A DNA stretch of 59,647 nt from Cyanobacteria bacterium SIG32 (GTDB lineage: Bacteria; Cyanobacteriota; Vampirovibrionia; Gastranaerophilales; Gastranaerophilaceae). The stretch covers positions 1-59,647 of the forward strand of contig SUTY01000002.1 in the NCBI GenBank assembly GCA_015152455.1, written 5' to 3'. Shown here piece after piece: positions 13,354 through 49,967 of this stretch; position 1 is the stretch's first letter, and each line of letters opens with the position of its first letter. The translations under genes were made by a program, and so were the position numbers. The notes under the pieces were generated by a model. That model did not search any database and had not been told where the DNA came from. It worked only from the letters and a program-made list of their open reading frames with translations.

Positions 13354-13905
13354 TTATTTGTTATTTGCTTTCATTTCTTTATAAATGCTATATAAATTTT
13401 CTTTTGTTACATACAAAGATAAATACAAATTAACAATTTCACTTACACTTAATGTTTGTTTGTTTTCTGGCAAGCCGGTTGCATCAAACACATCGAATTT
13501 TTTATTTAAAATTTCAGAAATATCTTCTCCTAACAAAGTTTTAATTTGTAATGCTATAAGGATATCATCCATAATTTCTTTATATTTTTTGATGTAATTT
13601 GGCTTATAAAAAAACCCATTCACATATTGAACAGGCTTTTCTAAACTAGATTCATATTGTTGTCCTTCAGGAGAGTCATCTTTATCTAGAAGGGTATTTA
13701 TAATATTGTTTTCTATGCAATAATTTGCATATTCATCCTTTGTCATAAAACTTTCTAAATAAGTGTATTTTGTTTTTTCGTTATTTTCCTCATCAATTGT
13801 TGCAACTTCTTGAATATCTCGTCTGACATATACTCCATTTGGAGAAGAATTTTTATCAATGTTTTCTGGCTTTACTGCACTTTCTACTTTTTTCCAATTC
13901 GTCAT
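13354..13905 (-). CDS. tail-fibre-adjacent phage protein
   Basis: 183 residues. The N-terminal part (NWKKVESAVKPENIDKNSSP, then GVYVRRDIQEV and a FMTKDEYANY segment) resembles small proteins coded after tail fibres in Bacillota phages; the rest is helical. The start follows GAGGAGG by nine bases and overlaps the reverse transcriptase end by 50 bp. I considered the DGR accessory protein Avd, but size and sequence do not fit the usual ~120-residue helical bundle. Confidence 0.5.
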   Translation of the reverse strand: MTNWKKVESAVKPENIDKNSSPNGVYVRRDIQEVATIDEENNEKTKYTYLESFMTKDEYANYCIENNIINTLLDKDDSPEGQQYESSLEKPVQYVNGFFYKPNYIKKYKEIMDDILIALQIKTLLGEDISEILNKKFDVFDATGLPENKQTLSVSEIVNLYLSLYVTKENLYSIYKEMKANNK

Positions 13906-15049
13906 TTCTAGAGTTCCTCCTCTTTGAATAATTACTCATAATTTTTCTTAAATTACCTAAATTAACAAATGCTGCAATATATTTTTGAAAAGCTTTGTAT
14001 GTAGCAGTTCTCTTAAACCATCCCTTATAGCTTAACATTCTTGCAGCATCAAACCAGGTTATTTTTTCTTTTTTATTTATTCGCCTTGCTGTTTTAACTG
14101 CACGTGCAAAAATTCCTTTTCTAATAGTGGTTTTATCTCTGTAAAATTTAAAACCCATAAAGTCAATAAAGCGACCTCTTCTTTTACCATATTTATCGAT
14201 ATAATCAAACCTATAAATTTGATAATTTGATTTTAATTGGAGGTCCATTTTTTCAAGATATTGCTTTATTGCTTCAAGTTTTTGATGCAATTCTTTTTTA
14301 TTCCTCCCAAATATTACACAATCATCCATATAACGAACATAACACTTAACTTTTAATTGCTCTTTTATATAGTGGTCAAATGGTTGCAAAAAGAAATTCG
14401 CAAACCATTGAGATGGATAGAACCCAATTAATAAACCTCCTTTGTATGTTTTTCCTTGTAATTGGTATTCATTCGTATCTAAAATGTAAAAAATCAATTT
14501 TAGCATTTTTTCATCGTGAATAATATTTCTAAATCGATCTTTTAGCATTTCAACATTTACATTTTCATAAAAATGATAAATATCGAATTTAAGAACATAT
14601 TTAATTTCGGATTTACCTTCTCTTATGAATTTTTCAAGATATCTTTTTCCATAATGAATTCCTCTTTTAGGAATGGAACCACATGAAAATTCGTACATTC
14701 CTTTCATCATTATAGGTTTTAATGTTCTTATAACTATATGATGTAACCATTGTTCTGGTTCTTCTCTATCAAATCTTGGTTGAACGACTTTTCTTGGTTT
14801 ATTTCTATATCCATCTTGCTTTATTATTGCTTGGTGGACAAAAGGAATAAAATCTCCAGCAATCATTCGTTGCCGGAGATGTTCCTTGCACTCAATTCTG
14901 TTGTTTAAAATGTCTTGAACGTCTGGCCGATCTTTTTTTCGTTCGGTTGCATCATCCAAGGCTGGTTCCATAATTTCATCACTTATTGCTTTTTCAAAGA
15001 GGTGGTTATAACTTTTCATTTCTCTTACTAATGCCTCACGGACTTTCAA
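13856..15049 (-). CDS. DGR reverse transcriptase
   Basis: 397 residues. Palm motifs are clear: KFDIYHFYENV with the first catalytic Asp at 156, LLIGFYPSQWFAN at 207-218, where IG..xSQ is the hallmark of diversity-generating retroelement RTs (group II intron RTs have QG..SP), and YVRYMDDCVIFG with YMDD at 240-243. It copies the template-repeat RNA with errors at adenines; the cDNA replaces the variable repeat. The frame starts at TTG 15049 with an ATG ten codons in (15019); neither has an ideal ribosome binding site. It lies 88 bp downstream of the template repeat. No Avd gene is recognisable nearby. Confidence 0.93.
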   Translation of the reverse strand: MKVREALVREMKSYNHLFEKAISDEIMEPALDDATERKKDRPDVQDILNNRIECKEHLRQRMIAGDFIPFVHQAIIKQDGYRNKPRKVVQPRFDREEPEQWLHHIVIRTLKPIMMKGMYEFSCGSIPKRGIHYGKRYLEKFIREGKSEIKYVLKFDIYHFYENVNVEMLKDRFRNIIHDEKMLKLIFYILDTNEYQLQGKTYKGGLLIGFYPSQWFANFFLQPFDHYIKEQLKVKCYVRYMDDCVIFGRNKKELHQKLEAIKQYLEKMDLQLKSNYQIYRFDYIDKYGKRRGRFIDFMGFKFYRDKTTIRKGIFARAVKTARRINKKEKITWFDAARMLSYKGWFKRTATYKAFQKYIAAFVNLGNLRKIMSNYSKRRNSRNDELEKSRKCSKARKH

Positions 15050-15137
15050 CGTGCTACTAATCCATGCCTCTTTTTCGGCGCATTTTCTCCATGGGGAGAG
15101 GATAACAATCTACAATGTAAGTCTTATTGTATCATTA

Positions 15138-15255
15138 GTAATAGAGCGCAACGCCATAGTTCCAATTCGAGTTCGACACGGCCCTGTTGACAATGAACGA
15201 AAACGGACCAACAAGCAAGCCATCATTCGGATTCGAGCCAAAACGAGCGAAGCCT
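15138..15255 (-). repeat. DGR template repeat (TR)
   Basis: 118 bp aligning without gaps to the variable repeat at 15447-15564. On the coding strand the two differ at 12 places, all of them A in this copy (19 adenines in total). It holds six AAC/AAT codons in the fibre frame, the usual design because mutating the two As gives very varied amino acids. It lies in non-coding DNA between the fibre and the RT. Confidence 0.95.
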
Positions 15256-15365
15256 GTAAATTATTACCCAAATTTTAAATGTGCAACAAAATCAAGTCCA
15301 AGAAAAATATATCACAAACATTTAAAAAAATACATGTTATAATTTCCCCACCTCCTGAAAGTACC

Positions 15366-15440
15366 CATGAAAAAAATTTTTCATGAGCCTAAAGGCTCAA
15401 TACTATGGGGGAGGGTTCCCCCAAACCCCCTCTAAAGAGG
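15366..15440 (-). other. hairpin cluster just downstream of the variable repeat
   Basis: Reading along the coding strand after the VR: CCTCT/AGAGG with a 2-base loop (15429-15440), GGGGGA/TCCCCC (15405-15420), GAGCC/GGCTC with a 4-base loop (15384-15397) and an A/T-rich ATGAAAAA/TTTTTCAT arm. In the Bordetella phage DGR a hairpin at this place stimulates retrohoming, so one of these is the likely equivalent; the last may also act as a terminator. Confidence 0.5.
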
Positions 15441-17396
15441 TTTTCTGTAAGAGAGCGCAACGCCAGAGCCCCAATCCGAGTCCGACACGGCCCAGTAGAC
15501 AACGAACGAAAACGGACCAACAAGCAAGCCATCAACCGGATACGAGCCAAAACGAGCGAAGCCTACTACAGTAGAATTACTCCACATTCCATCACAATAG
15601 TAAGTTGAAGAGGACCCCCCAGAAGTCGCCATTGGAACTAATCCCAAATGAGGAACTAGCTTCATTTCCTTAATATAAAGTTGAGATACAGTGCCAGAGA
15701 TTGTCACTCCTGAATCTATATATCCGGTACCATCTGCATTGTAATCTTCTACGGTAGAACCATCATCGGTGCCTAGACACATTTTATAAAGAAGTTTTCC
15801 ATTTTTCTGAATGACACCTTCTGTAAACTTCCAAATTTCTCCCCACCAATCTTCCATCCAGAATACAGTTACCCTTTCATTATCTCCACCACAATAGAAT
15901 GGACCTTTTTTATCATTTGTTCCTGTTGTAATAATTTGACCGGTATTTGTAGTATCCGTATAACCAGTATATCTTCCTGTGCCGAATACTGATTGTAAAT
16001 CTAAAGATTTACCCATGAAAATCAACAAATAATTAATCAATCTTCTAAAATTATACTCGTCAGCTCTCCAACCAGCTCCATTTGCTTTCGCATATTCTAG
16101 TTGTAAATCACCAGCAACATTTCTGCAACAGTCTTTGCCAGACAATGAACGTATTACATTATCTATCAATGATCCATTATATAATGCTCTATAATAAAAT
16201 TCCGTATAACTTCCATCTGCACGTTTGTGAGTCCAACAATCATAACTTTCATCAACTTGTTTATTTGCTAGGCATATATGTTTCAAAGAGCCTATTTGTT
16301 CCTCCTTAATCCATATTTGACCTACTTCAAGCATAGCATTACCATCGTAAGAAGCATTTTTATTATCAGAGGCTGTGATTCCATCCTCTCTTAATCCTAA
16401 ATCATTTGGATGTAGATAATAATCACGCACACCATCCCTACGAAGCATACAAGGTTTTATTAATCCCATAAAGAATGTTGATTCCATGGATCCCCATTCA
16501 AATTTTTTAGTTGTTGCATTCATGTATGCAGGTGTAAAATCTTTACTTGCACCTACATATTTAACGCAGGTTGATGGGTTACTGTCGTTATCATCAATTG
16601 TAAATTCATATATTTTTGTACCAAATTCATTCTGTGAATTTCTACAATAAACATCATGTGTTGAATAAGGAAATGCCTTATAAAAATAACCTTCTCCTTT
16701 TTCATCTATCAATGGTTCTTTAGAATATTGCCCCCAAGTCGTTACATCTGCTACTAATTCTCCGTCAGTTTCTGACTTTGGATAACTACCAAATTTTTTA
16801 CGAATTTGTGTTCCTGCCCAAGTACACAAAGTAAACATATCAATTACTGTATTTTTAGGATCATTCCAAGTTAATTTTCTAATAGCACCATCTTCTGAAA
16901 TATTTAAATTAGTACATACTGAAGGTGGAATTCCTTGACCTTTAGTTGCGTATTCACGAGATATAACTACTGTTACATTTGAAGAATTTGCAACTTTTAC
17001 AATAATTGTTGCCTCTTCCTCTACTGAAATACTACTAGTATTTGAAGGAATATAAGATGCTACATCACCTTTATTTCCATACGCATATAAAACTTCCAAG
17101 CCTGTTTCTGGATCAATAGCATATAAGCCAATTTCTCTGAACACAAAACCAGTTTCACTTTGAGTTATCAATGCTGTGATGGACAAGGTTTGTTCGTCAA
17201 TTTTTTCATCATTATATATTCCTAATTCTTGGAGAGGATTAATTAAATCTGTTAAATCTTCAGGGTTAATTATTCCGAGTTCGCCATCTCCTATTTTCAC
17301 TTTTGTGAACTTTACAGATGCACCTAATTGTGCTTGTGTTAATATTGATTGACCAGATCTTGTTAATCCGGTTTGTATACTTGAATCAGTTGTCAT
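15432..17396 (-). CDS. tail fibre with DGR-diversified C-terminal domain
   Basis: 654 residues. The N-terminus (to about 150) resembles the collar/attachment domain of P2 gpH-type fibres: QTGLTRSGQSILTQAQLGAS, FTKVKIGDGEL, ETGFVFREIGLYAID. The C-terminal third has the Gly/Trp-rich composition (VFWMEDWWGEIWKF) of a C-type-lectin/FGE-like ligand-binding fold, and the variable repeat encodes its last part, ending seven residues before the stop. It is the likely receptor-binding protein at the tail tip. It follows the gpI-like gene by 11 bp. Confidence 0.9.
   Translation of the reverse strand: MTTDSSIQTGLTRSGQSILTQAQLGASVKFTKVKIGDGELGIINPEDLTDLINPLQELGIYNDEKIDEQTLSITALITQSETGFVFREIGLYAIDPETGLEVLYAYGNKGDVASYIPSNTSSISVEEEATIIVKVANSSNVTVVISREYATKGQGIPPSVCTNLNISEDGAIRKLTWNDPKNTVIDMFTLCTWAGTQIRKKFGSYPKSETDGELVADVTTWGQYSKEPLIDEKGEGYFYKAFPYSTHDVYCRNSQNEFGTKIYEFTIDDNDSNPSTCVKYVGASKDFTPAYMNATTKKFEWGSMESTFFMGLIKPCMLRRDGVRDYYLHPNDLGLREDGITASDNKNASYDGNAMLEVGQIWIKEEQIGSLKHICLANKQVDESYDCWTHKRADGSYTEFYYRALYNGSLIDNVIRSLSGKDCCRNVAGDLQLEYAKANGAGWRADEYNFRRLINYLLIFMGKSLDLQSVFGTGRYTGYTDTTNTGQIITTGTNDKKGPFYCGGDNERVTVFWMEDWWGEIWKFTEGVIQKNGKLLYKMCLGTDDGSTVEDYNADGTGYIDSGVTISGTVSQLYIKEMKLVPHLGLVPMATSGGSSSTYYCDGMWSNSTVVGFARFGSYPVDGLLVGPFSFVVYWAVSDSDWGSGVALSYRKPL
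15447..15564 (-). repeat. DGR variable repeat (VR) in the tail fibre
   Basis: 118 bp forming the codons for the fibre C-terminus. Relative to the template, residues change N to Y, N to V, I to V, N to Y, R to W, N to D twice, N to G and Y to S twice, all by substitutions at template adenines. The framework residues (GFARFGS, DGLLVGPFSF, GVAL) are unchanged. Mutated positions reach within four bases of the end of homology, so the initiation (IMH) segment is short or lies partly outside. Confidence 0.95.
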
Positions 17397-35487: not shown

Positions 35488-36876
35488 TTACTCATCAATA
35501 GCTTTTAGAGGAGACTTGATTTCGTTACCCTCTCTAAAACATTTAATTAATGTGTTATCAAATACAGTCATGTATCTTCTGACTATTGCATCACAATATT
35601 CAGGACTTAATTCAATAACTCTCGCTCTTCTTCCTAGCTTCTCGCAAGATATGATTGTTGTGCCAGATCCTCCAAATGAGTCGAGGACTATCTGGCCAGG
35701 TCTTGAAGAATTTTCTATTCCATCAATAAACAAATCAACAGGCTTCATAGTAGGGTGAAGCGTACTCTTTGTAGGTCTATTGAAGTTTAATATTGTTGAT
35801 GTTGCACCAGCAATTCTTTTGATAAGTTCTATTAATTCTTCTTTCTTAAGCTTATCGTATTCAATAGATTTTAATTCGTTAACTGTTGGAATGTTTCTCT
35901 TCTCTGTAAAATAATGCGCTGCACCTTCTTTCCAACCATACAAACAAGATTCGTGTTTCCATTGGTAGTCTTGCCTACCCATAACAAATGAATTCTTTAC
36001 CCAGATTAGATTTTGCTTTATCAATATCCCAGCGAATTCTAACGCACGTTGAAAGTTTATTCTTTCACTATCTGCGTGCCAACAATACAATGCGCCACCA
36101 GGTTTTAAAAATTCACTCATTGGCTTAAAGCAATCAAGAAGAAATTTATAAAATTCACTATCACTTAAATTGTCATTAGCGATTTTTAATCCTGTTCCAC
36201 CTTCGTAATCAACATTGTATGGTGGATCAGTAATAACCATATCAGCTATTTCATCTTCCATCAATTTTTTATAAACATCTATGTCACGGCTATCTCCACA
36301 GACTAATCTGTGCCTACCTAATAACCATAAATCTCCAGCTTTAGTGAATGCCTTACCTTTTTCTGCCGGTAGAACTATAGTGTCTAAATCTGCAACTTCT
36401 TGTGTTTCTTCAATAACACTTATTAATTCGTTGTATTCATCTTGAGTATAGCCGGTCAATTCTCCATAATCCTCAAAATTAAAACTATCAAACATTTGCG
36501 CTAATAATTTTGAATCAATTTCCGATAATTCTGCAATCCTGTTATCAGCCAATAGAGCTGCATTTTCTTCATCATCACTTGAAAAATTTTGATATTCGAC
36601 TGGAACAGATTCAAACCCTGCCAATATTGCTGCTTTTAATCTCCCATGTCCTTTAACAATATAACCGGAACGTCTTGAAACAGTTATTGGCGCCCTCCAT
36701 CCTGTTTTAGAAATAATATCGGCTAATAATCTAATTTGTTCTTCTGGGTGGGTATTTGGGTTTTTAGGGTTTTCTTTTAGATTTGCAGTTTCAACAATTT
36801 CGTCAAATGCACAAAATACATTTACTTGATTGATTTTTGCTCTTTCGCATACTTCATTTGCTTGTTTTTTAGACAT
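35488..36876 (-). CDS. ParB-nuclease-like domain fused to DNA methyltransferase
   Basis: 462 residues. Residues 15-155: ParB/sulfiredoxin-like domain (PNTHPEEQIRLLADIISKTG, IVKGHGRLKAAILAG with GHGR at 76-79). Residues 180-450: amino-methyltransferase of the beta class with ITDPPYNVDYEG (DPPY 217-220) and a late VLDSFGGSGTTI cofactor motif, so N6-adenine or N4-cytosine methylation. Phages use such proteins for host-range protection. The leader carries repeat element A with an anti-start arm. A paralogous ParB domain lies at 51902-52501. Confidence 0.85.
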   Translation of the reverse strand: MSKKQANEVCERAKINQVNVFCAFDEIVETANLKENPKNPNTHPEEQIRLLADIISKTGWRAPITVSRRSGYIVKGHGRLKAAILAGFESVPVEYQNFSSDDEENAALLADNRIAELSEIDSKLLAQMFDSFNFEDYGELTGYTQDEYNELISVIEETQEVADLDTIVLPAEKGKAFTKAGDLWLLGRHRLVCGDSRDIDVYKKLMEDEIADMVITDPPYNVDYEGGTGLKIANDNLSDSEFYKFLLDCFKPMSEFLKPGGALYCWHADSERINFQRALEFAGILIKQNLIWVKNSFVMGRQDYQWKHESCLYGWKEGAAHYFTEKRNIPTVNELKSIEYDKLKKEELIELIKRIAGATSTILNFNRPTKSTLHPTMKPVDLFIDGIENSSRPGQIVLDSFGGSGTTIISCEKLGRRARVIELSPEYCDAIVRRYMTVFDNTLIKCFREGNEIKSPLKAIDE

Positions 36877-37021
36877 AGTACTACTTCCTTTTCCTCAGTG
36901 CTGTGATACACTGGTTAAGGCGGTGCTTTTAAATGTCTAAAAGTAACATCTTCGCATGGTCGCCAAACTAATGCGAAGGTGTAAGCAATTCACATGTTGC
37001 TTTCGCCACTATCTACTCAAA
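36867..37021 (-). ncRNA. leader RNA element, copy A
   Basis: Lies between the C5-methyltransferase terminator and the ParB-methyltransferase start. Two hairpins: AAGCAA/TTGCTT (36983-36988 with 36997-37002) and CTTCGCAT/ATGCGAAG (36950-36957 with 36971-36978). A further arm, TTTTAGACAT on the mRNA (36942-36933), is perfectly complementary to ATGTCTAAAA at the start codon (36876-36867), enclosing the ribosome binding site. Nearly identical to copy B over about 130 bp. A short CAGTG/CACTG hairpin sits in the enclosed loop. Confidence 0.65.
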
Positions 37022-37036
37022 TAACTTTGTTATGAA

Positions 37037-37075
37037 ATAAAACCGTGACATAATGTCACGGCTTTATTTTTTTGT
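37037..37075. terminator. terminator after the C5-methyltransferase gene
   Basis: CCGTGAC (37043-37049) pairs with GTCACGG (37055-37061); T-rich tracts follow on both strands. It would stop leftward transcripts right before element A unless antiterminated. Confidence 0.7.
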
Positions 37076-37079
37076 TTAC

Positions 37080-38537
37080 TTACTCAAGAAACATATTGCT
37101 GAAGATTTTTTCAAGAACATCAACAACAATAGAATTTCCAGCTTGTTTATATAATTGTGTTTTACTTACTCCAGCATTTTGTGCCTTATAAAAGTCAGCA
37201 TCATCAAATCCCATTAATCTCCAACACTCTAATGGTGTTAATTTTCTGATTCTCAAATTATAATTATGCATCGGTATATGACCACCACCACATCCCATTG
37301 CACTTGTTAGTGTCGGACATATACCCTCATTGTTTATTGCAGCATTCTTTTGAGTACTGCCTATTATAATCTTTGGTTCAAGTCCTCCACCTTGCATAGT
37401 ATTAATAGTTGGACTTATTCCTTCAGTTGAATATATGCGCCCTCTTTGTGGATTATTCCAATTCCCTGTATTTACAATATTACCTGCTTGTATAATTTTA
37501 GGTGTATTTGAACGTGCGCATATCGTTGGTGCAATTCCTTCTTGTGAATAAACTCTTCCCTCTGTAGGATTTCCACCAAATCTCTCCGTATTTTTAAGAT
37601 TTCCAACTTGTACAATTTTCTTTTCAAGTAAAAGATTATCTTTTTGAACTGTTGTCAAAGTATTAGATATTCCTTGCAAATTTGGCTCTAATCTTTGTTC
37701 AAAAAAAGAGCCCTTTGTTCTATCAGAAGGGTTTTGTGGGTTTCTGCCTCGGCTTGCAACTATTAAATAATTATCATCCATTCTGGATCCAGCTTTTGTT
37801 GTTACTGAAAAAGCAATTTCAGCTTGTTCTGAATTATGAGGTTTAAACCTAAAACCATTACCCTTTTCTTGGTTTTTAAGAGAATTATTTATAAAATACT
37901 CTAAAGTTTTTTGCTTCAAATAAAAAGACTCATCAACTTTTTCTTCTAAAATATCGATGAGTCTTTTGTTTAAATTTTCTTTTTCTGGGAATTTAAAAGT
38001 TCCACGATCTACATCTTTTCGGATACTTACCCCATATACTCTTTCTCTATTTTGAGGTATTCCATAATGTTTGGCATTTAATACCTGCCAATATGTATTG
38101 TATCCTAATGTATCAAGGTATTCCAGCCATTCTAAAAATTGAGGCTTGAATTTTTTACCAACTAAATTTTTCACATTCTCCAATAATAAATACTTTGGAA
38201 GAGTGCCATCAGCTTTTGCTATTTCAAGTAATCTTTGAACTTGATACAACAGTCCTGAACGAGTGTTTTCGTTAATACCTTCCTGTCTACCAGCAACTGA
38301 AATATCGGTACAAGGGAATGAATAAGTCCACAAATCTGCATAATTAAGCCGTTCAATAGTTTTAATATCGCCATAGTTGAAAGTTTTTCCGTATATAGCC
38401 TCATAACTAGTAATGGCATATTTATCGATTTCTGAAATACCTACAATTTCATGCTTAATACCGATTCTTTGCAGTGCCTTTTTTTGAGCCCCTATTCCAC
38501 TAAAAAGCTCATTGACAGTGATAACGTCTTTAGTCAT
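37080..38537 (-). CDS. DNA (cytosine-5) methyltransferase
   Basis: 485 residues from the ATG at 38537, chosen because AGGAAAAGG precedes it and the upstream 11 codons lie inside the leader element. Motif I TVNELFSGIGA, catalytic PC at 75-76 in YSFPCTDISVAG, ENV at 120-122, QNRERVYG, a variable target-recognition part with repeats of 'EGI.PTI', and GNSIVVDVLEKIF at the end. It methylates cytosine at C5, probably against host restriction. Confidence 0.9.
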   Translation of the reverse strand: MTKDVITVNELFSGIGAQKKALQRIGIKHEIVGISEIDKYAITSYEAIYGKTFNYGDIKTIERLNYADLWTYSFPCTDISVAGRQEGINENTRSGLLYQVQRLLEIAKADGTLPKYLLLENVKNLVGKKFKPQFLEWLEYLDTLGYNTYWQVLNAKHYGIPQNRERVYGVSIRKDVDRGTFKFPEKENLNKRLIDILEEKVDESFYLKQKTLEYFINNSLKNQEKGNGFRFKPHNSEQAEIAFSVTTKAGSRMDDNYLIVASRGRNPQNPSDRTKGSFFEQRLEPNLQGISNTLTTVQKDNLLLEKKIVQVGNLKNTERFGGNPTEGRVYSQEGIAPTICARSNTPKIIQAGNIVNTGNWNNPQRGRIYSTEGISPTINTMQGGGLEPKIIIGSTQKNAAINNEGICPTLTSAMGCGGGHIPMHNYNLRIRKLTPLECWRLMGFDDADFYKAQNAGVSKTQLYKQAGNSIVVDVLEKIFSNMFLE

Positions 38538-38681
38538 ATTAATTTTCCTTTTCCTAGTGCTGTGATACACTGGTTAAGGCGGTGCTTTTAATATGACTAA
38601 AAGTAACATCTTTGCATGGTCGCCAAACTAATGCGAAGATGTAAGCAATTCACAAGTTGCTTTCGCCACTATCTACTCAAA
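38529..38681 (-). ncRNA. leader RNA element, copy B
   Basis: Upstream of the C5-methyltransferase gene. Same two-hairpin module as copy A (stems at 38606-38642 and just beyond). Its anti-start arm is TTTAGTCATATTAA on the mRNA (38601-38588), perfectly complementary over 14 bases to TTAATATGACTAAA (38542-38529), which contains this gene's own ATG. Copy A has a different arm matched to its own gene, so the pairing is preserved by paired changes. Confidence 0.65.
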
Positions 38682-38740
38682 ATATTTAATTGTGAATACC
38701 GGTGATTACAAAAGTGACCACCGATATTATTTAATTGGAG

Positions 38741-39367
38741 TTAATTCTTTGTTGCTTCGCCGATATACCTTTTCAAATTATGGTTAAATCTATCATGCAA
38801 AAGTTCTCCCAAGCTAGTATTCATTATTTCTCTAGCTGTTTCATTGTCTACCATTTGAGGCAAAGACAATGTTCTCATAGGGTTAATTACTCCATCAGTA
38901 TCTCTTAACCACGGAATAATCCTGCTACTACCCTTACGAGCAGGAGCCACAAAAGGAACTTTTCCGTCTTTAGTAGGAGATTTAACTGTTTTTTGTTGTT
39001 TTTTTACTTTCAGTTTTACTGAATATTTTTTACCTTTTTTAGGCATTGTTTTTGGAGTTACTCCAAAGTGCAAAGGTGTTAAAACACGGCCCTCATAATG
39101 AAGTGTCAATTCTGCAATCGTTTGACCTTTTATTTTTATTGAACCAGCCTTTTTTAAATCAGTTTTTTTCTTTGTAGGCATCACATCAGATTTTTTGATA
39201 CTGAAAACTTCTCTAACAGCATCAGCAACTTTACCTGGAGCACGTCTTTGCATATCTCCAATAGTCCTAGTAAAAACTCCTGAAGGATCGCCTAATACTC
39301 TGGATAATCTCTCAAATTTTTTTTGCACGTCTGAAGTATCAATTTTTATTTTGTTAAAATAAGTCAT
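38741..39367 (-). CDS. minor tail protein Z-like (gp10/gpZ superfamily)
   Basis: 208 residues: coiled N-terminus, then RRAPGKVADAVREVFSIKKS and a basic beta region with LRDTDGVINPMRTLSLPQMV; matches the prophage minor tail protein Z group involved in tail completion. It is the first late gene, separated from the other tail genes by the terminase and head modules. GGAGG site before the ATG. Confidence 0.65.
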   Translation of the reverse strand: MTYFNKIKIDTSDVQKKFERLSRVLGDPSGVFTRTIGDMQRRAPGKVADAVREVFSIKKSDVMPTKKKTDLKKAGSIKIKGQTIAELTLHYEGRVLTPLHFGVTPKTMPKKGKKYSVKLKVKKQQKTVKSPTKDGKVPFVAPARKGSSRIIPWLRDTDGVINPMRTLSLPQMVDNETAREIMNTSLGELLHDRFNHNLKRYIGEATKN

Positions 39368-39664: not shown

Positions 39665-39916
39665 TTATCCTTCCATTAGCTCATCATAGTCAATGTTGTG
39701 AGATCTTGCATATTGCAAGAAACTTTTTTCTTTTTTTGACACTCGCATTTGGAACTGAAGAACATTGTCTGGGTTTTTCTTTTTTCTTCCGGAACCTTCA
39801 CGAAAACCACCATGGATTTTCTTAACTTCCTGGTCCACTTCATTGTATAGTTCAGTTTGTTCTTCTGGTGTTAATAATTCTTTGATGAGATCGTCATTTG
39901 TTTTTAAATTATCCAT
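39665..39916 (-). CDS. type II antitoxin
   Basis: 83 residues from the ATG at 39916 (AAGGAG eight bases before). Acidic helical N-terminus, a GGFREGSGRKKKNPDN basic segment and a C-terminal RVSKKEKSFLQYARSHNID helix pair suggest a small ribbon-helix-helix-like DNA binder. Coded after the toxin, overlapping it by eight bases, as in HigBA-type order. Confidence 0.65.
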   Translation of the reverse strand: MDNLKTNDDLIKELLTPEEQTELYNEVDQEVKKIHGGFREGSGRKKKNPDNVLQFQMRVSKKEKSFLQYARSHNIDYDELMEG

Positions 39917-40235
39917 TGGCGTTACTCCTTTTGTATTTTTCAATTCTGGTCATTGCAATTTCTTTGTATCTTTCTGGTGCTTTTTGAGTTTTCTTTAATG
40001 TTACAAGTCCAATAATTACGATACTATTTTCGTGATACATGAAGTAGATGCGAACTTTGTCACTTTTTAATTCGAATAAACCTTCTTTATTAAGAGGTCT
40101 GCTGTTTACACCATCCTTTCCAACTTGTTCAAAAGTTGCAACTGTGCGCAAAGCTCTTTTTAAATTTTGTTTATCAAGGCTTTTTAATTCGTTTTCTGCT
40201 TCTGCTGTATATTTTGCAATAAATTGTTTTTCCAT
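39909..40235 (-). CDS. RelE/ParE-superfamily toxin
   Basis: 108 residues: helix pair AEAENELKSLDKQNLKRALR, then beta sheet GLFELKSDKVRIYFMYHENS and VIIGLVTLKKTQKAP, close to RelE/HigB mRNA interferases and Gp49-like toxins. Expressed from its own consensus promoter with an operator inside it; transcript may be leaderless. Confidence 0.75.
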   Translation of the reverse strand: MEKQFIAKYTAEAENELKSLDKQNLKRALRTVATFEQVGKDGVNSRPLNKEGLFELKSDKVRIYFMYHENSIVIIGLVTLKKTQKAPERYKEIAMTRIEKYKRSNANG

Positions 40236-41914: not shown

Positions 41915-42246
41915 TTTATATACACTCTCCTTCCTAACTCAATATCAAAAACATTACAGTCTATTGCTAAATCCGTATTTTTTCCATTAATAGTTTCAAT
42001 GCTTTTGATTTCAAAATACATTACTTTGTCTTTATCTGTTGATTTTACAGTTTGTCCTGCTCTAAACCTAACAATATCTACTTTTCTTAATTTATCCACT
42101 ACTTGCAAACAATGGATATTTATACCAATATTGTTACACCAATGAGGAGTAGCTTTTCTGTATTCGTGTGTTTTTTCTCCGGTTTTTATTTTATCAAACC
42201 ATACCTTTTTTATAGGGAGATCTAAAATTCTATCTTTTTTGCTCAT
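41911..42246 (-). CDS. ASCH-domain (DUF3850-like) protein
   Basis: 111 residues. LPIKKVWFDKIKTGEKTHEY RKATPHW is the ASCH/PUA-like N-terminal signature, then RKVDIVRFRAG and VMYFEIKSIE. RNA-binding fold, function in phages unknown. ATG of the next gene overlaps its stop. Confidence 0.75.
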   Translation of the reverse strand: MSKKDRILDLPIKKVWFDKIKTGEKTHEYRKATPHWCNNIGINIHCLQVVDKLRKVDIVRFRAGQTVKSTDKDKVMYFEIKSIETINGKNTDLAIDCNVFDIELGRRVYIK

Positions 42247-42706
42247 TTTTTAACTCCTGAAGATATTCTTCTCCCAATAATTCTGGATTTTCATAAATAT
42301 TTCCTATTATTTCAATTTCTTTTAAATTAAATAGATATTCATCACTCCAGCAGTCACCACAAATAAAATAAGAACAATACGTTTCTGAATAGTGAATATA
42401 GCAAAGTCTTTCTCTATTTAAATGATCTATTCCTTTTACAATATCCCCTTCGTAAATCAACTTATTCTTTTTATCTTTCAAACCTGTGCAAAACTGAATG
42501 TCGTACAAATTATTATCCGGTGTAAAAAGCATATTACACGAAGAGCCTTCTCTTCCTTTTTCTTGACATTTATAAATAACATTTCTTGCAATCTGTCCAT
42601 CAGCTTCAAGTAAATAAAAAGCATCGGTTCTTCCTAAATCTTCATATCTTGCATCTGCGTATGCAGAACCTTTGAAATACACTCTGTATTTATTTTTGTT
42701 CTTCAT
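42230..42706 (-). CDS. YopX-family protein, paralog 1
   Basis: 158 residues from ATG 42706 (AAGGAGAG site). YopX core: FCTGLKDKKNKLIYEGDIVK, later EIIGNIYENPELL. This small beta-barrel protein is widespread in phages; no proven function. One of five paralogs in the early region. Confidence 0.8.
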   Translation of the reverse strand: MKNKNKYRVYFKGSAYADARYEDLGRTDAFYLLEADGQIARNVIYKCQEKGREGSSCNMLFTPDNNLYDIQFCTGLKDKKNKLIYEGDIVKGIDHLNRERLCYIHYSETYCSYFICGDCWSDEYLFNLKEIEIIGNIYENPELLGEEYLQELKNEQKR

Positions 42707-42791
42707 TTTTTCTCTCCTTGCTGAAATAACCCCACAAACGGATCGCATATACAATTCCAATTGCTAAAATAAAAATACCTAGACCTTTCAT
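42690..42791 (-). CDS. 33-residue membrane micro-protein
   Basis: ATG 42791 follows GAGAGGTAATA. One hydrophobic helix, GIFILAIGIVYAIRLWGYF, and a charged tail SKERKNEEQK. It overlaps the following YopX start, so it probably is translated with it. Confidence 0.5.
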   Translation of the reverse strand: MKGLGIFILAIGIVYAIRLWGYFSKERKNEEQK

Positions 42792-42793
42792 TA

Positions 42794-43033
42794 TTACCTC
42801 TCTATTAATTTAAATTCGTTACTAAAACATATTTTTACTACCTTTGTACACTCGGCACCATTCCCACGGAATAGTGCCTCGTCTTTTATTCTTCTGAATT
42901 GTCCATAGCAAAAAGCCTGACCATTGTCTTTTTTGATCAAGCAATATGCACATTCTTTTTTACAATAGGCTTCTATTCGCCAATCTTCTTTTTTATAATT
43001 TCTCCGATTTCGGAATACACGTATTTTCCCCAT
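42794..43033 (-). CDS. small Cys-containing early protein
   Basis: 79 residues from ATG 43033 (GGAG nine bases before). Basic N-terminus, YCKKECAYCLIKKDNGQAFC gives Cys-x3-Cys-x2-Cys, possibly a zinc site. Unknown. Confidence 0.5.
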   Translation of the reverse strand: MGKIRVFRNRRNYKKEDWRIEAYCKKECAYCLIKKDNGQAFCYGQFRRIKDEALFRGNGAECTKVVKICFSNEFKLIER

Positions 43034-43307
43034 GTATAGGTTCTCCAACTATCCACTTTAATACATCCATTTTTGCATCGTTATATGCAATTCTGAGTTC
43101 AAGTTCTTGTATTTCCTTCTCTCTTTTAATATCTGCTTGAAGGGAAGCAACTCTTGTTTGTAATTCAGCAACTGCAACATCTTTAACAGGTTCTACTGTT
43201 GGTAATGCCATGGGAGATTTTTTTAAATTTTCTAACTCTTGCTGCAATAATAATTTATCTTGCGCTGTTTTAATTACTACATTAATAATTTCATTCATTG
43301 TTTTCAT
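42993..43307 (-). CDS. coiled-coil early protein
   Basis: 104 residues from ATG 43307, overlapping the upstream TGA inside CCGGCATGA with GGAG eight bases before. A long coiled coil (LQTRVASLQADIKREKEIQE) then a short C-terminal DVLKWIVGEP. Unknown. Confidence 0.55.
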   Translation of the reverse strand: MKTMNEIINVVIKTAQDKLLLQQELENLKKSPMALPTVEPVKDVAVAELQTRVASLQADIKREKEIQELELRIAYNDAKMDVLKWIVGEPIHGENTCIPKSEKL

Positions 43308-43555
43308 GCCGGTTTCTCCAATTTTTCTTTTAATTCCTTTAATCCTTTGCAAATAGTTTCAAGATATTTTATGTGGTTATCTATTGTTCTATTTCGATTT
43401 TGATTGAATTTAACTTCACAATGCGTGAAAAATTTGCTTCTAGGATCCAGATGTTCTGTTGACATTTGAACATCTACATCTTCATAATCGTTCATTTCAT
43501 CAATTAGCCTAATAGTAAAAACCCTGTTTACTTCCTGTATTTCATCAATTTTCAT
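43304..43555 (-). CDS. small early protein
   Basis: 83 residues; MKIDEIQEVNRVFTIRLIDE strand and a helical end (RTIDNHIKYLETICKGLKEL). Site GGAG before ATG. Unknown. Confidence 0.5.
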   Translation of the reverse strand: MKIDEIQEVNRVFTIRLIDEMNDYEDVDVQMSTEHLDPRSKFFTHCEVKFNQNRNRTIDNHIKYLETICKGLKELKEKLEKPA

Positions 43556-43988
43556 AATATTTCTCCAATAATTCTGGGTTTTCGTATATGTTGCCGATTA
43601 CTTCTTGTTGAGTTGTATCAAATAGCAAGAATGAATTGCTGACAGTTGATTTTAAATAAAAACCACCTTTAATCCATTCAACAATACAGAAATAACTCGG
43701 AATATTTATATCTTTAACTATATCTCCCTCATAGATCCACTTGTTGTTTTTGTCTTTTAAGCCTGTGCATTGCATAACTATCATTTTTTCGTCAAAATCA
43801 AAATCTTCTTGATTTATAAAAAGAGTATCGTTTTCACTATTCCATAATTCTGGACTTTTGTTGTATGCTTCTGCAAGATTTACTCTTTCAAGTTTTGCAA
43901 CATATCCGGTTGAAGTAATTACAAAATCGTTATAGTGCATTGTGTTTGTTGTCTTATCAAAAATTCTTGTTTTAAATCTATCTTTCAT
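43545..43988 (-). CDS. YopX-family protein, paralog 2
   Basis: 147 residues from ATG 43988 (GGAG site). N-terminal FKTRIFDKTTNTMHY, core QCTGLKDKNNKWIYEGDIVK, end GNIYENPELLEKY. The 3' end shares more than 30 identical bases with paralog 3. Confidence 0.85.
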   Translation of the reverse strand: MKDRFKTRIFDKTTNTMHYNDFVITSTGYVAKLERVNLAEAYNKSPELWNSENDTLFINQEDFDFDEKMIVMQCTGLKDKNNKWIYEGDIVKDINIPSYFCIVEWIKGGFYLKSTVSNSFLLFDTTQQEVIGNIYENPELLEKYYEN

Positions 43989-44439
43989 TTGTTTTCTCCA
44001 ATAATTCTGGGTTTTCGTATATGTTGCCGACAATTTCATATTCTTTTGGATCGTATTCAGTAAAAATAAAATCTTCATAACTTCCTGTTTTGCAACCTTT
44101 TAGCACAAATGCACACCATTCAGGAACATGTACAACAGTCATTAAATCGTAATCAATATCGCCAGATTCTCTTTCAAAATAAGCTCTAACAATATCTCCT
44201 TCATATAAAAGGTTGTTCTTTTTGTCTTTCAATCCCAAGCATTGCATCAAAATACAGTCTTTGGGTTCTACTTGAATGTGCATATTTTGTTGAGTAATTA
44301 TATTAAAGCCTTCAGCGGTTGCCCAATCTCCACCATTTTCATAAGTTCCAACATGCAAATGCAAAACTTTATACATCTTTTTCCTTTTTTTATGCCATAC
44401 TCTGAATTTATAGCGGTCCTGCTGTATTCTTTCTGTCAT
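43978..44439 (-). CDS. YopX-family protein, paralog 3
   Basis: 153 residues. KFRVWHKKRKKMYKV start, QCLGLKDKKNNLLYEGDIVR core, EIVGNIYENPELLEK end. Start overlaps the stop of paralog 4 with GAGGAGG nearby. Confidence 0.85.
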   Translation of the reverse strand: MTERIQQDRYKFRVWHKKRKKMYKVLHLHVGTYENGGDWATAEGFNIITQQNMHIQVEPKDCILMQCLGLKDKKNNLLYEGDIVRAYFERESGDIDYDLMTVVHVPEWCAFVLKGCKTGSYEDFIFTEYDPKEYEIVGNIYENPELLEKTNER

Positions 44440-44891
44440 TCATCCTCCTCTAATAATTCTGGGTTTTCGTATTTATTGCCAATTACTTCCCAATTATCAT
44501 AATCTTCTAAAGTTCCGGTATTACCTGTTGATCTTCCTACTACATCTGCATCTTTATTTCTAAAAACATAATAAAAGAACTGAGCACTTTCTTTAGCCCA
44601 GCAAATTTCGGCAGAATAATTGTATTTATCTTCACACCAAAAAGGATATTCTTTGGATCTTACGATATCACCCTCAAAAATTATTTTTTTGTTAATATCT
44701 TGCAATCCTGTGCTTTGCATTATTACTAAATCATCAGCTTTAACTTCATGCACATTTGTTATTTTATGATCGTAATTCTTGAATAATAATCCACCTTTTC
44801 CTGTTTCGCCATCAATTAATGTAGGATCATTAAATAGCATCATTTTATTTTCTGATTTACAGAAAATTCTAAACTTTAACCTATTTTTCAT
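44436..44891 (-). CDS. YopX-family protein, paralog 4
   Basis: 151 residues. LKFRIFCKSENKMMLFND start, QSTGLQDINKKIIFEGDIVR core, EVIGNKYENPELLEE end. Clear ribosome binding site AGGAG. Confidence 0.85.
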   Translation of the reverse strand: MKNRLKFRIFCKSENKMMLFNDPTLIDGETGKGGLLFKNYDHKITNVHEVKADDLVIMQSTGLQDINKKIIFEGDIVRSKEYPFWCEDKYNYSAEICWAKESAQFFYYVFRNKDADVVGRSTGNTGTLEDYDNWEVIGNKYENPELLEEDE

Positions 44892-44894
44892 TAT

Positions 44895-45389
44895 TTATTC
44901 TCCTGTGATCGCTTGTATTCGTTGAGGATAATGTATTTTTTTAAATGTTGTCCTTTGAAACATTGTCAAACAATCGTCATAATCTTTTTCATACTTATGC
45001 TCCAATAACAAACTCGATTTACATCTAGGACATTCATAATTTTCATCTGGGCATTGATTTTCCCAACAATGGTAATCAACATAACCACACACAGGACATA
45101 TCGCATTATTCATATTCTCGATTTGCGGATTTCTTTTTATTTCTTTTAAACATTTGATTTCATATGGTTCAGCAAATATGTTTTTTATTTCGTGATTTGT
45201 ATCTTTGTAGCTTGTTTTTGCACGTGTATCATAAAGCTGACCATCTAACTCAAAATTTTTGAACCAATCTTTTAAATCTGTATTTGTTGTAGCTATAAGT
45301 CTGTATTTATCTTCTACATATTTTTGGGTACATTCGCAATTAAATAATTGCAGATCTAGAGTTTCTTGGTATAACCATATTTTAATCAT
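44895..45389 (-). CDS. zinc-ribbon early protein
   Basis: 164 residues. Central CPVCGYVDYHCWENQCPDEN and YECPRCKSSL give CxxC...CxxxxxC...CxxC, a zinc ribbon. The N-terminal IWLYQETLDLQLFNC resembles small phage proteins. Sits among YopX paralogs; may bind nucleic acid. Confidence 0.55.
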   Translation of the reverse strand: MIKIWLYQETLDLQLFNCECTQKYVEDKYRLIATTNTDLKDWFKNFELDGQLYDTRAKTSYKDTNHEIKNIFAEPYEIKCLKEIKRNPQIENMNNAICPVCGYVDYHCWENQCPDENYECPRCKSSLLLEHKYEKDYDDCLTMFQRTTFKKIHYPQRIQAITGE

Positions 45390-45402
45390 TTTGACCTTCC
45401 TT

Positions 45403-45921
45403 TTAATTATTTCTGAAATTTTTTATTTCAAATTCTTCCAAATGTTCTTTTGCTCTCCAATCTAGTTCTGGGGTTTGAATAATATCTCCAATTATTACTG
45501 TATGTTTTTGATAAGAACCTACAGATGTGCATCCTTTATTCCAACCTGTGTGGCTATCAATATAAGTTACACAGGCTTTTTCTTTTTGGGTACCAATTTT
45601 GGTTTCAACAATATCTCCTTCAAAAATCAATGCACCGGTTTTATCTTTTGCGCCGGTGCATCTAAATCTTTTTATAAAATTATAATTGTTTCGGACCTTT
45701 ACTAAGTCTTTCCAAACCTCTCCGTGTTCTTCTATGTCATCAACAGTTAGGTCTATATAAATAAATTCTGCACAATTTTCTGCTATATGGTATTTTTTAT
45801 CCTTAAAAAATACATATCGATATATTTCATTTAAATTTTTTAGATTTTTTATTTTATTTGAAACATACCAGCATGTATTTTCAAATCTTTTACTTTTTTC
45901 CTCTTTAATCTTCTGGCCCAT
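45403..45921 (-). CDS. YopX-family protein, paralog 5 (divergent)
   Basis: 172 residues from ATG 45921 (AAGGAG site). Core CTGAKDKTGALIFEGDIVET and VIIGDIIQTPELDW; more diverged than the others and longer at the N-terminus. Confidence 0.75.
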   Translation of the reverse strand: MGQKIKEEKSKRFENTCWYVSNKIKNLKNLNEIYRYVFFKDKKYHIAENCAEFIYIDLTVDDIEEHGEVWKDLVKVRNNYNFIKRFRCTGAKDKTGALIFEGDIVETKIGTQKEKACVTYIDSHTGWNKGCTSVGSYQKHTVIIGDIIQTPELDWRAKEHLEEFEIKNFRNN

Positions 45922-46084
45922 CTTCAAATTCTCCTTTTTCTGCTTTGTCAATTTCTCTTTCAGCAATCCTTGAGCCGACTTCGAAGATTATCCAAAACGG
46001 AATCATCAATGGAACAATTATAATGCAGCTTAATACAGCAATTATTCCAATAATAATTTTATAAATTTTTCCAAGTATTCCCAT
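45905..46084 (-). CDS. 59-residue membrane protein
   Basis: ATG 46084 follows AAGGAGG by seven bases. Hydrophobic hairpin IIIGIIAVLSCIIIVPLMIP then a charged end. Overlaps both neighbours, hence co-translated. Unknown. Confidence 0.6.
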   Translation of the reverse strand: MGILGKIYKIIIGIIAVLSCIIIVPLMIPFWIIFEVGSRIAEREIDKAEKGEFEDGPED

Positions 46085-48955: not shown

Positions 48956-49144
48956 TTAGTTTCTTGATATTAGTTCCATTTCAGCATTTATTTTCATTAT
49001 TAATCCTTCCGCAGATTTTAAACAATCTTCTCTTTCTTTATCATCAAGAATTGCAAATTTACCATATTCTATGGGTGCAACCATTTTATAAACGGCTGCA
49101 TATGTGTTTACTCTCTCAACTCTTTTTAATTGTTCTACTGACAT
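48956..49144 (-). CDS. small early protein
   Basis: 62 residues, helical, begins MSVEQLKRVERVNTYAAVYK. AGGAAG site. Overlaps the upstream gene by ten bases. Unknown. Confidence 0.5.
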   Translation of the reverse strand: MSVEQLKRVERVNTYAAVYKMVAPIEYGKFAILDDKEREDCLKSAEGLIMKINAEMELISRN

Positions 49145-49665
49145 AATTCTTCCTGTATTTTGCTTATTTTTTCTAATATTTCTTCAACTTCAGCATCTGT
49201 TAACCAGCCTTTAACTTCTTTGGGAGTTAAGAAAGTTTTTACAATTTCAGAATTTTTCATGACACAAAGTTCCCATTTGTCATACCTTGCACCATAACTT
49301 CCAAAATTCTTTATAACAGATACTTCATATCCATTTGGTAATATAAACAAATAACGGATCCCTCCAAGCCAATTTTCTCTTTCGAATTTCCAATCTTTGG
49401 TTAACTTAAGATCTAAAGTTAATCCTTCTGAAGCTTTTTCCATAACTCTTTTTAAATCACAAGTTGTAAGCATTTTATCCTCCATTATAAAAGTTTTTTC
49501 TTTTTCGTCAGGGGGTGGCCCAAACTTCTTTACAAGCAATATGATGGTTGATTTCATTTTGCATGTCTTTTGGCTTGCAAAAAAGTTGTTATAAATACAA
49601 CCTTCACATACTGCACCTCTTTTCCAGCAGTTGATGGCTGATTCGGTCCAACGTCTAACTTCCAT
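49135..49665 (-). CDS. Cys-motif early protein
   Basis: 176 residues. N-terminus RRWTESAINCWKRGAVCEGC then TCKMKSTIILLVKKFGPPP: Cys spacing C-x5-C-x2-C-x11-C suggests a metal site followed by a helix, a domain I have seen at the head of other phage/host small proteins without named function. The rest is a beta domain (WLGGIRYLFILPNGYEVSVI). Its leader is repeat element C. Confidence 0.5.
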   Translation of the reverse strand: MEVRRWTESAINCWKRGAVCEGCIYNNFFASQKTCKMKSTIILLVKKFGPPPDEKEKTFIMEDKMLTTCDLKRVMEKASEGLTLDLKLTKDWKFERENWLGGIRYLFILPNGYEVSVIKNFGSYGARYDKWELCVMKNSEIVKTFLTPKEVKGWLTDAEVEEILEKISKIQEELCQ

Positions 49666-49679
49666 AAATTCCTCCGAAA

Positions 49680-49742
49680 CTTCGCATGGTCGCCAAACTA
49701 ATGCGAAGGTGTAAGCAATTACATTTTGCTTTCGCCACTATC
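49680..49742 (-). ncRNA. leader RNA element, copy C (short form)
   Basis: 63 bp with the same two hairpins as copies A and B: AAGCAA/TTGCTT and CTTCGCAT/ATGCGAAG with the same 13-base loop. The anti-start arm and following 45-55 bases are absent; instead GGAGG comes four bases after the second stem. The first part also encodes the last residues (SGESKM) of the upstream gene. Confidence 0.6.
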
Positions 49743-49967
49743 TTTTTTTCTTAATTCTTCTTGTAAATTTCGATTTTGTTTTACTACAAGTTCATATTGC
49801 TTAACTAATAAAGCATTCGCATTTTGCAAACTATCAATTATTTCGTTTTTTACAGTCATAAGAGCATCTTCAGTTATTAGTGCATCGTGAAATTTTCTCT
49901 GTAAAATATCGTAATTATTACTTAAATCATCATAAGCCTGTTTTAATTCGTCATAACTCAAATCCAT
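49719..49967 (-). CDS. coiled-coil early protein
   Basis: 82 residues, coiled coil throughout (QAYDDLSNNYDILQRKFHDA, LQNANALLVKQYELVVKQNR). Its last codons overlap repeat element C. Unknown. Confidence 0.55.
   Translation of the reverse strand: MDLSYDELKQAYDDLSNNYDILQRKFHDALITEDALMTVKNEIIDSLQNANALLVKQYELVVKQNRNLQEELRKKDSGESKM

Follow-up and report, generated by a model that had tools for sequence, protein, structure and literature searches.

Structured leaders with gene-matched anti-start arms before DNA methyltransferase genes of phages linked to Gastranaerophilales: a candidate translational lock

Two DNA methyltransferase genes of unrelated families stand one after the other in a prophage of Cyanobacteria bacterium SIG32 (Gastranaerophilales), one joining a ParB-type domain to an N6_N4 methyltransferase and the other encoding a C5 cytosine methyltransferase, and each is preceded by a leader that is nearly identical to its counterpart outside one variable arm. 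Why is most of this leader held constant, and what does the arm follow? The stretch analyzed here (the window, 59,647 nucleotides (nt), positions 1 to 59,647 of contig SUTY01000002.1) is one contig of a 1.7 Mb draft genome and holds the prophage. Sequence comparison indicates that the element is in all likelihood a structured RNA whose arm pairs with the start of its own gene, and the reading that we favor, on balance, is that of a structured 5′ leader that locks the translation of phage DNA methyltransferase mRNAs and is opened by a trans factor. The window leaders at the ParB-type and C5 methyltransferase genes are referred to as winA and winB, and their parts are as follows.

35488..36876, minus strand: ParB-N and N6_N4 DNA methyltransferase gene, 462 amino acids (aa), start ATG TCT AAA; Pfam N6_N4_Mtase, phrog_498; its ParB_N domain scores just under the Pfam cut-off
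36867..37020, minus strand: leader element A and start region of the ParB-N/N6_N4 methyltransferase gene; covariance-model match of 162.8 bits
36983..37002, minus strand: hairpin P2 of element A, AAGCAA/TTGCTT, loop CATGTGAA; A-U to G-C double change in the related lineage L100
36946..36982, minus strand: hairpin P3 of element A, invariant loop TAGTTTGGCGACC; two-sided changes at five pairs
36933..36942, minus strand: anti-start arm A, TTTTAGACAT; 36942-36933 forms 10 perfect pairs with 36876-36867 at the ParB-methyltransferase ATG
36896..36913, minus strand: inner hairpin of P4 in element A, CAGTG/CACTG, loop TATCACAG; both sides have changed at two stem pairs, with little variation in the loop
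36887..36890, minus strand: AAGG of gene A, Shine-Dalgarno-like; its pairing partner is CCTT at 36920-36917
37080..38537, minus strand: C5 cytosine methyltransferase gene, 485 aa, start ATG ACT AAA; Pfam PF00145
38529..38680, minus strand: leader element B and start region of the C5 methyltransferase gene; covariance-model match of 161.3 bits
38643..38662, minus strand: hairpin P2 of element B
38606..38642, minus strand: hairpin P3 of element B
38588..38601, minus strand: anti-start arm B, TTTAGTCATATTAA, an inverted repeat; 38601-38588 forms 14 perfect pairs with 38542-38529 at the C5-methyltransferase ATG
38547..38550, minus strand: AAGG of gene B, Shine-Dalgarno-like; its partner in the predicted fold is CCTT at 38579-38576

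The original prediction that each arm is complementary to the ATG of its own gene, and that the remainder of the element is nearly the same in the two copies, is borne out on both counts: outside the variable arm, A and B differ at 3 of 78 aligned positions in the hairpin part and at 5 of 47 in the inner part of the arm hairpin. In P4, the long arm hairpin, the arm faces the AUG region and codons 2-3, CCTT faces the AAGG Shine-Dalgarno sequence (one of these four pairs in the alignment columns is C-A in copy B), and an inner stem forms the tip. P1 (AGTG/TACT) could lie upstream of the transcript start, and it possibly closes P2 and P3 into a three-way junction. The predicted fold of leader B is more stable than all of 200 shuffles (z −3.97), and that of leader A is weaker in this respect (z −2.20, with 3 of 200 shuffles as stable).

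Two copies taken alone are suggestive, and relatives were therefore sought; the strength of the case lies in the comparison of seven elements. Pattern and covariance-model searches yielded five further full elements in four other phage lineages, giving seven in five lineages: the window; L010, a separate viral contig with an 87% identical methyltransferase; L100 (IMG/VR record 2523533517_000001), where the ParB domain is joined to a different C-terminal part; L213, a contig titled Candidatus Gastranaerophilales with two elements (L213A and L213B) in the same two-gene arrangement as the window; and L232, from genome G295 of the same family as the window genome. The hosts of the L010 and L100 phages are presumably Gastranaerophilales as well. 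The viral record 3300024268_000262 carries copies identical to those of the window and was left out of the count.

All seven arms pair with their own start, four of them with small loops or a bulge. Pairing is unbroken in winA (10 pairs), winB (14 plus a wobble) and L232 (15); it runs to 11 + 3 pairs around a 1 × 1 loop in L213B, 9 + 5 with a 3-nt bulge in L213A, 6 + 6 around a 3 × 3 loop in L010, and 8 + 5 around a 2 × 2 loop at the AUG in L100. The seven genes all start ATG-N-CTAAA, and the pair facing N is A-U in three, U-A in two and C-G in one, with a mismatch in L010. The claim that the arms changed together with their gene starts holds for the variable part, i.e., the base opposite position 1 of codon 2 and those opposite the AUG and the spacer just upstream of it; it does not extend to the TTTTAG of the arm, which faces the CTAAA of the start and is constant in all seven.

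When the arms are exchanged among the seven leaders, equal or better pairing is obtained in 2 of 5040 permutations, the observed one counted (2 of 720 with six elements), and the total pairing energy of the arms with their own starts is −91.3 kcal/mol against a permutation mean of −64.5 kcal/mol. With random letters in the variable part of the arm, as good a fold arises, per 500 trials, 7 times in winA, 0 in winB, 32 in L010, 23 in L100, 17 in L213B, 16 in L213A and 0 in L232; these arm-start tests treat related sequences as exchangeable, so that the frequencies are not strict probabilities. Within L213 the bodies of the two leaders show 0 differences over 125 positions, the variable arms differ at 5 of 6 and the start regions at 6 of 17, which indicates that the body has been homogenized while the arms stay gene-specific. 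When 143 open reading frame (ORF) starts from the window and a few related loci are compared, with A and B among them, the longest uninterrupted complementarity between leader and start is that of B (14), then that of A (10), and the next reaches 9.

The stems change in a manner expected of RNA. In the alignment of the seven elements, 92.6% of the cells in helices P1, P2, P3 and the arm are paired and eight pairs have changed on both sides; the covariation score of 0.127 is reached by none of 500 shuffles (0.049 ± 0.013), which do not preserve sequence relatedness. P3 contributes most, with five such pairs. P2 follows the consensus AAGCRA/TYGCTT with a single A-C mismatch, in L232, and the inner stem of P4 alternates between CAGTG/CACTG and ACCG/CGGT around a near-constant loop, TAWCACAR. 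The P3 loop TAGTTTGGCGACC and a 5′ segment, GATAGTGGCGAAAGC, are invariant across the seven. Stems that covary while loops stay fixed point to a structured RNA, and a U-G wobble at one arm position in L100 and L213B favors a sense-strand RNA over a DNA operator. Homologous leaders also stand before unrelated genes in related phages, i.e., two kinds of ParB-methyltransferase that differ in their methyltransferase part, the C5 methyltransferase and, as P2 and P3 only, a Cys-rich gene described below.

The P2 loop and the tip loop of P4 are a candidate kissing contact. Complementarity between the TGTGA of the P2 loop and the P4 tip loop spans 4 nt in L100, 6 nt in L232 and 5 nt in each of the other five elements, with shuffle frequencies of 0.02-0.04 outside L100. 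The same loop (36995-36990 in the window, for example) holds a start codon followed directly by a stop codon: ATG TGA in five of the seven full elements, TTG TGA in winB and L232, and ATG TAA in both copies that lack P4. By eye, no clear Shine-Dalgarno sequence precedes this minimal ORF, and it is kept as a lead only. The 5′ strand CACCGCCTTA presumably resembles the anti-Shine-Dalgarno end of 16S rRNA; as a speculation, the GGCG that both the 5′ segment and the P3 loop contain without variation might rival the Shine-Dalgarno sequence in pairing with CGCC.

The predicted cost of opening the start region (−14 to +6) is 7.8 kcal/mol for winA, 13.1 for winB, 8.7 for L010, 8.8 for L100, 9.3 for L213B, 8.2 for L213A and 15.0 for L232. 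For 53 other minus-strand ORFs in the window, the median is 4.7 kcal/mol, the 75th percentile 7.8, the 5th to 95th percentiles 2.2-12.0 and the maximum 17.4 kcal/mol. Two leaders thus exceed the 95th percentile and five lie near or above the 75th, and the start is predicted to be hidden strongly in the former and moderately in the latter. Two methyltransferase genes without the element have costs of 0.75 (L014) and 4.85 kcal/mol (L009). The original prediction described mRNA folding as a switch that hides the start codon and ribosome-binding site. The hiding is supported by the variants of the codon-2 pair, by the scarcity of equally good arm re-assortments and by the opening costs of 7.8-15.0 kcal/mol; the switching we infer from the invariant hairpin module.

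In the mechanism that we propose, the start would be hidden by default, with the outer arm of P4 on the AUG region and first codons and CCTT on AAGG. A trans factor would then bind the P2/P3 module and open P4 at the right time of infection, perhaps helped by the contact between the P2 and P4 loops. Since the arm is re-written from gene to gene, the open state is unlikely to need a fixed rival pairing of the arm, and an outside factor acting on the constant module would be the natural opener. That P4 keeps translation low appears likely; that the control is regulated rather than constant is somewhat favored, and the choice of a protein over a metabolite as trans factor is evenly balanced. The likeliest factor would be a phage or host protein, and the best candidate is encoded by a gene that carries P2 and P3 in front of it but lacks P4.

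49680..49743, minus strand: copy C, hairpins P2 and P3 only, 97% identical to A over 65 nt; directly before the Shine-Dalgarno sequence of the Cys-rich gene
49135..49665, minus strand: gene for a Cys-rich protein of 176 aa with a conserved N-terminal domain, WTxxxIxCxxRGxxCxxC...C; candidate trans regulator

The fuller motif of the domain reads WTxxxIxCxxRGxxCxxCxYxxFF...C, and the protein matches no methyltransferase family. G295 has a second copy with P2 and P3 only (L234), which fronts a gene of this Cys-rich family encoding 80 aa; the full element follows ~11 kb downstream of it. P2/P3 alone is thus found before a Cys-rich gene in both distinct phages whose sequence extends that far (the window and G295). 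On the L213, L100 and L010 contigs no more than ~2.5 kb of sequence remains upstream of the element, too little to show a Cys-rich gene at that distance; the gene has no match in the L100 and L010 records, and the L213 genome matches it on other contigs only. Both copies lacking P4 read TGTAA in the P2 loop, as opposed to TGTGA in all seven full elements, which is expected if the P2 loop normally meets P4. Their start regions, with opening costs of 5.4 and 4.6 kcal/mol, are not unusually closed. The position of the P2/P3 module before its gene marks the Cys-rich protein as a candidate regulator; that it is the trans factor is a tentative guess. A longer shot is that its domain, which is widespread in this bacterial order and carries no annotation there, represents a new family of RNA-binding translational regulators; the phage copy would sense its own level via P2/P3 on its own mRNA and unlock the methyltransferase mRNAs through the module that is joined there to start-matched arms.

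Several observations weigh against this picture. By duplex energy, B ranks 4th among the 143 starts and A only 23rd, and A alone is therefore unremarkable; its opening cost, 7.76 kcal/mol, is only about the 75th percentile of the controls. The AUG is not fully paired in L010 and L100, owing to their internal loops, nor in L213A, where the bulge includes its A. The arm helix taken alone, with six sequences, is only moderately above shuffles (10 of 500 reach its score and 133 of 500 its number of two-sided pairs), partly because 6 of its 14 pairs never vary. Covariation says nothing on P1, which is invariant in the seven full elements, and in L100 the pairing of the two loops is weak, at 4 nt with a shuffle frequency of 0.22. 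As for the candidate factor, 54 of the 59 genomes searched encode a relative of the Cys-rich protein, whereas the RNA is rare, which implies that the protein family has some other role too; the domain has no Pfam or NCBIfam match above cut-off, and no Com-like Pfam domain, the zinc-finger type of the phage Mu regulator discussed below, occurs among the 50 window ORFs scanned.

Could the module sense a metabolite instead? In a riboswitch, the P2/P3 junction would bind a small molecule (S-adenosylmethionine (SAM), S-adenosylhomocysteine or another metabolite) and control P4. The invariant loop TAGTTTGGCGACC and 5′ segment GATAGTGGCGAAAGC, the junction-like fold and a P4 reminiscent of an expression platform would suit this, as would the position of the module before two unrelated methyltransferase families, which use SAM. 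However, the element matches no Rfam riboswitch, the module also precedes the Cys-rich gene, which has no evident link to SAM, and all members found are phage or prophage sequence, which is unusual for a metabolite sensor; we consider a riboswitch rather unlikely. SAM itself, proposed as ligand in the original prediction, is unsupported, as no SAM riboswitch family appears over 36800-38800 even at E up to 5, and a SAM riboswitch as an identified class was rejected since Rfam gave no match. Alternatively, P4 might be a constant brake that just lowers or delays methyltransferase translation, with P2 and P3 only stabilizing the 5′ end of the mRNA. The raised opening cost in the seven leaders is consistent with such a brake, and over-expressed phage methyltransferases can be toxic, but the P2, P3 and P4 tip loops are conserved beyond the apparent need of a brake or stabilizer, and P2/P3 is kept without P4 at another gene in two phages, which makes this explanation doubtful.

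Two further explanations place the cause in the DNA. The arms do form inverted repeats, which might be an operator, e.g., for autoregulation by the methyltransferase at its own promoter, or the arms might be matched only through template switching in replication that perfects quasi-palindromes. Template switching would account for the arm-start matching and could renew the arms, but it leaves the conserved remainder unexplained; an operator would hold one sequence rather than let both halves change together, the sense-strand wobble pairs break the DNA symmetry, and the remaining stems covary independently of the arms, so that a DNA-level feature is very improbable. The leader might also be a repeated cassette, a mobile element or recombination patch that helped to insert the C5 gene, with the arms as a by-product. 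The C5 gene is indeed flanked by two copies of the element, and copies within a genome are homogenized. L014 carries a tail-completion-like gene, which is 45% identical to window 39367-38741, and ~24 nt beyond it a 66% identical ParB-methyltransferase, with no element; L100 has the element between these same neighbors and no C5 gene. Moreover, C5 proteins with the element begin MTK..ITVNELF, with extra residues after the Met compared with the sole distinct short homologue without it (L008/L009, MLTVNELF); the L229 homologue has a longer N-terminus. Duplication accounts for the second copy, however, and not for the maintained arm-start match or the stem covariation, and we regard the cassette explanation as improbable. 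In the simplest story, the leader arose at the ParB-methyltransferase gene and was copied with the first codons to a place before the C5 gene, where the arm was then re-matched, a step that template switching may help. A TnpB/IscB-like guide RNA was set aside because of the anatomy of such RNAs, the arm here being internal and its target in cis (no search for such genes was made). A promoter-like site on the antisense strand, overlapping the C5 start of the window, was discarded because L213B, by eye, lacks its TTGACA.

The element is rare. Of 383 genomes drawn from the order, search R2 finds it in 2, and likewise in 2 of 383 drawn from the family, the own genome counted in both (overlapping draws, strict filters); an exact pattern occurs in 1 of 383, which is the own genome, and a scan of genome contigs with a similar pattern gave four loci, one of them real. 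Among 80 ParB-methyltransferase loci kept of 583 matched, blastn finds the element in L010 only, and blastn against phage and plasmid records gave no match to it. A number of weaker matches were read as chance: four R1 matches in other genomes (L205-L208, E 0.0016-0.017); blastn matches L091-L094 and L097, from four other genomes and one elsewhere in the own genome, with no R1 match up to E 5; R1 matches of 17.3-17.6 bits (L147, L128, L130, L158 and L115), which have only the first 15-17 nt of the element in common, and, as a group, those below them in the same list; weak matches in L004, L005, L211, L212 and L214 and in L215-L218 (best 11.9 bits); and, by eye, an R2 match of 23 bits (L023, E 0.00057).

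The prophage was recognized from terminase, tail, repressor-like and recombinase genes identified by Pfam and PHROGs; the window has 158 ORFs of at least 60 aa, of which 50 were scanned by Pfam. One further feature lies between the two methyltransferase units.

37043..37061, minus strand: terminator-like palindromic hairpin between the C5 gene and element A; the scan lists the plus strand, and on the minus strand TTTTATTT comes after it

Just upstream of the methyltransferase block, at 39665-40235, lies a small toxin-antitoxin-like gene pair, a Gp49-like protein and a 92-aa partner for which the Pfam scan gives no match. Five YopX-domain genes form one prophage cluster at 42230-45966. Farther away, a diversity-generating retroelement occupies 13856-15564 on the minus strand, with its reverse transcriptase gene at 15049-13856, a template repeat at 15138-15255 and a variable repeat at 15447-15564 that ends a tail-fibre-like gene; 12 of 12 mismatches between the repeats fall at template adenines, and an Rfam RT-18 RNA match lies in this region (15098-15024).

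How does the proposed lock compare with known control systems? SAM-III/SMK riboswitches hide the start, and the element shares with them a multi-helix leader, sequestration of the Shine-Dalgarno sequence and start, and methylation-related genes; it differs in that it has no Rfam match even at a relaxed threshold, that all members found here are in phage sequence and that its module stands, in addition, before a gene for which no connection to SAM is evident. Start-site hairpins control translation in other phages, e.g., T4, where mRNA structure at the ribosome-binding site likewise governs a gene; here, by contrast, one modular element is shared by several genes and its arms are gene-specific. 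The element has no counterpart among the Rfam 15 families, whether in the window, over 36800-38800 at relaxed threshold or at four relative loci; the few weak hits fall under gathering scores, are of unrelated kinds and include no SAM family. No publication on the element was found among the titles and abstract openings of the open-license literature. We regard it as an RNA family not represented in Rfam, although the kind of control is known; what is unusual is that the arm is matched to each gene and that the module recurs before a third one. It would be a natural portable translation lock in which a single arm is matched per gene, as RNA engineers build, and its phages are associated with a gut bacterial order.

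The closest precedent, by analogy, is the Com-mom system of phage Mu. As described in PMC6483171, Com binds beside the stem that inhibits translation and encloses the mom start, and melts this stem. The leaders here have in common with that description a phage DNA-modification gene, its start codon in a predicted inhibitory stem and an adjacent candidate site for a trans factor; the placement of the start and ribosome-binding site inside a hairpin is indicated by prediction and covariation. Membership is not claimed, because the Pfam scan of 50 ORFs revealed no protein of the Com family; the Cys-rich protein of the window differs from that family. If a trans factor does open the lock, this would be another natural case beside Mu mom of phage DNA modification timed by mRNA unlocking, and a Cys-rich protein family that has no annotation so far might gain a function; should the Cys-rich domain prove to be the regulator, the system would be a parallel to Com-mom of independent origin, and its cassette could be set before any gene once a single arm is matched anew. 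In distinction from Mu com-mom, the leader here spans ~150 nt, contains a multi-hairpin module and stands before two unrelated methyltransferase genes, with an arm matched to the start of each.

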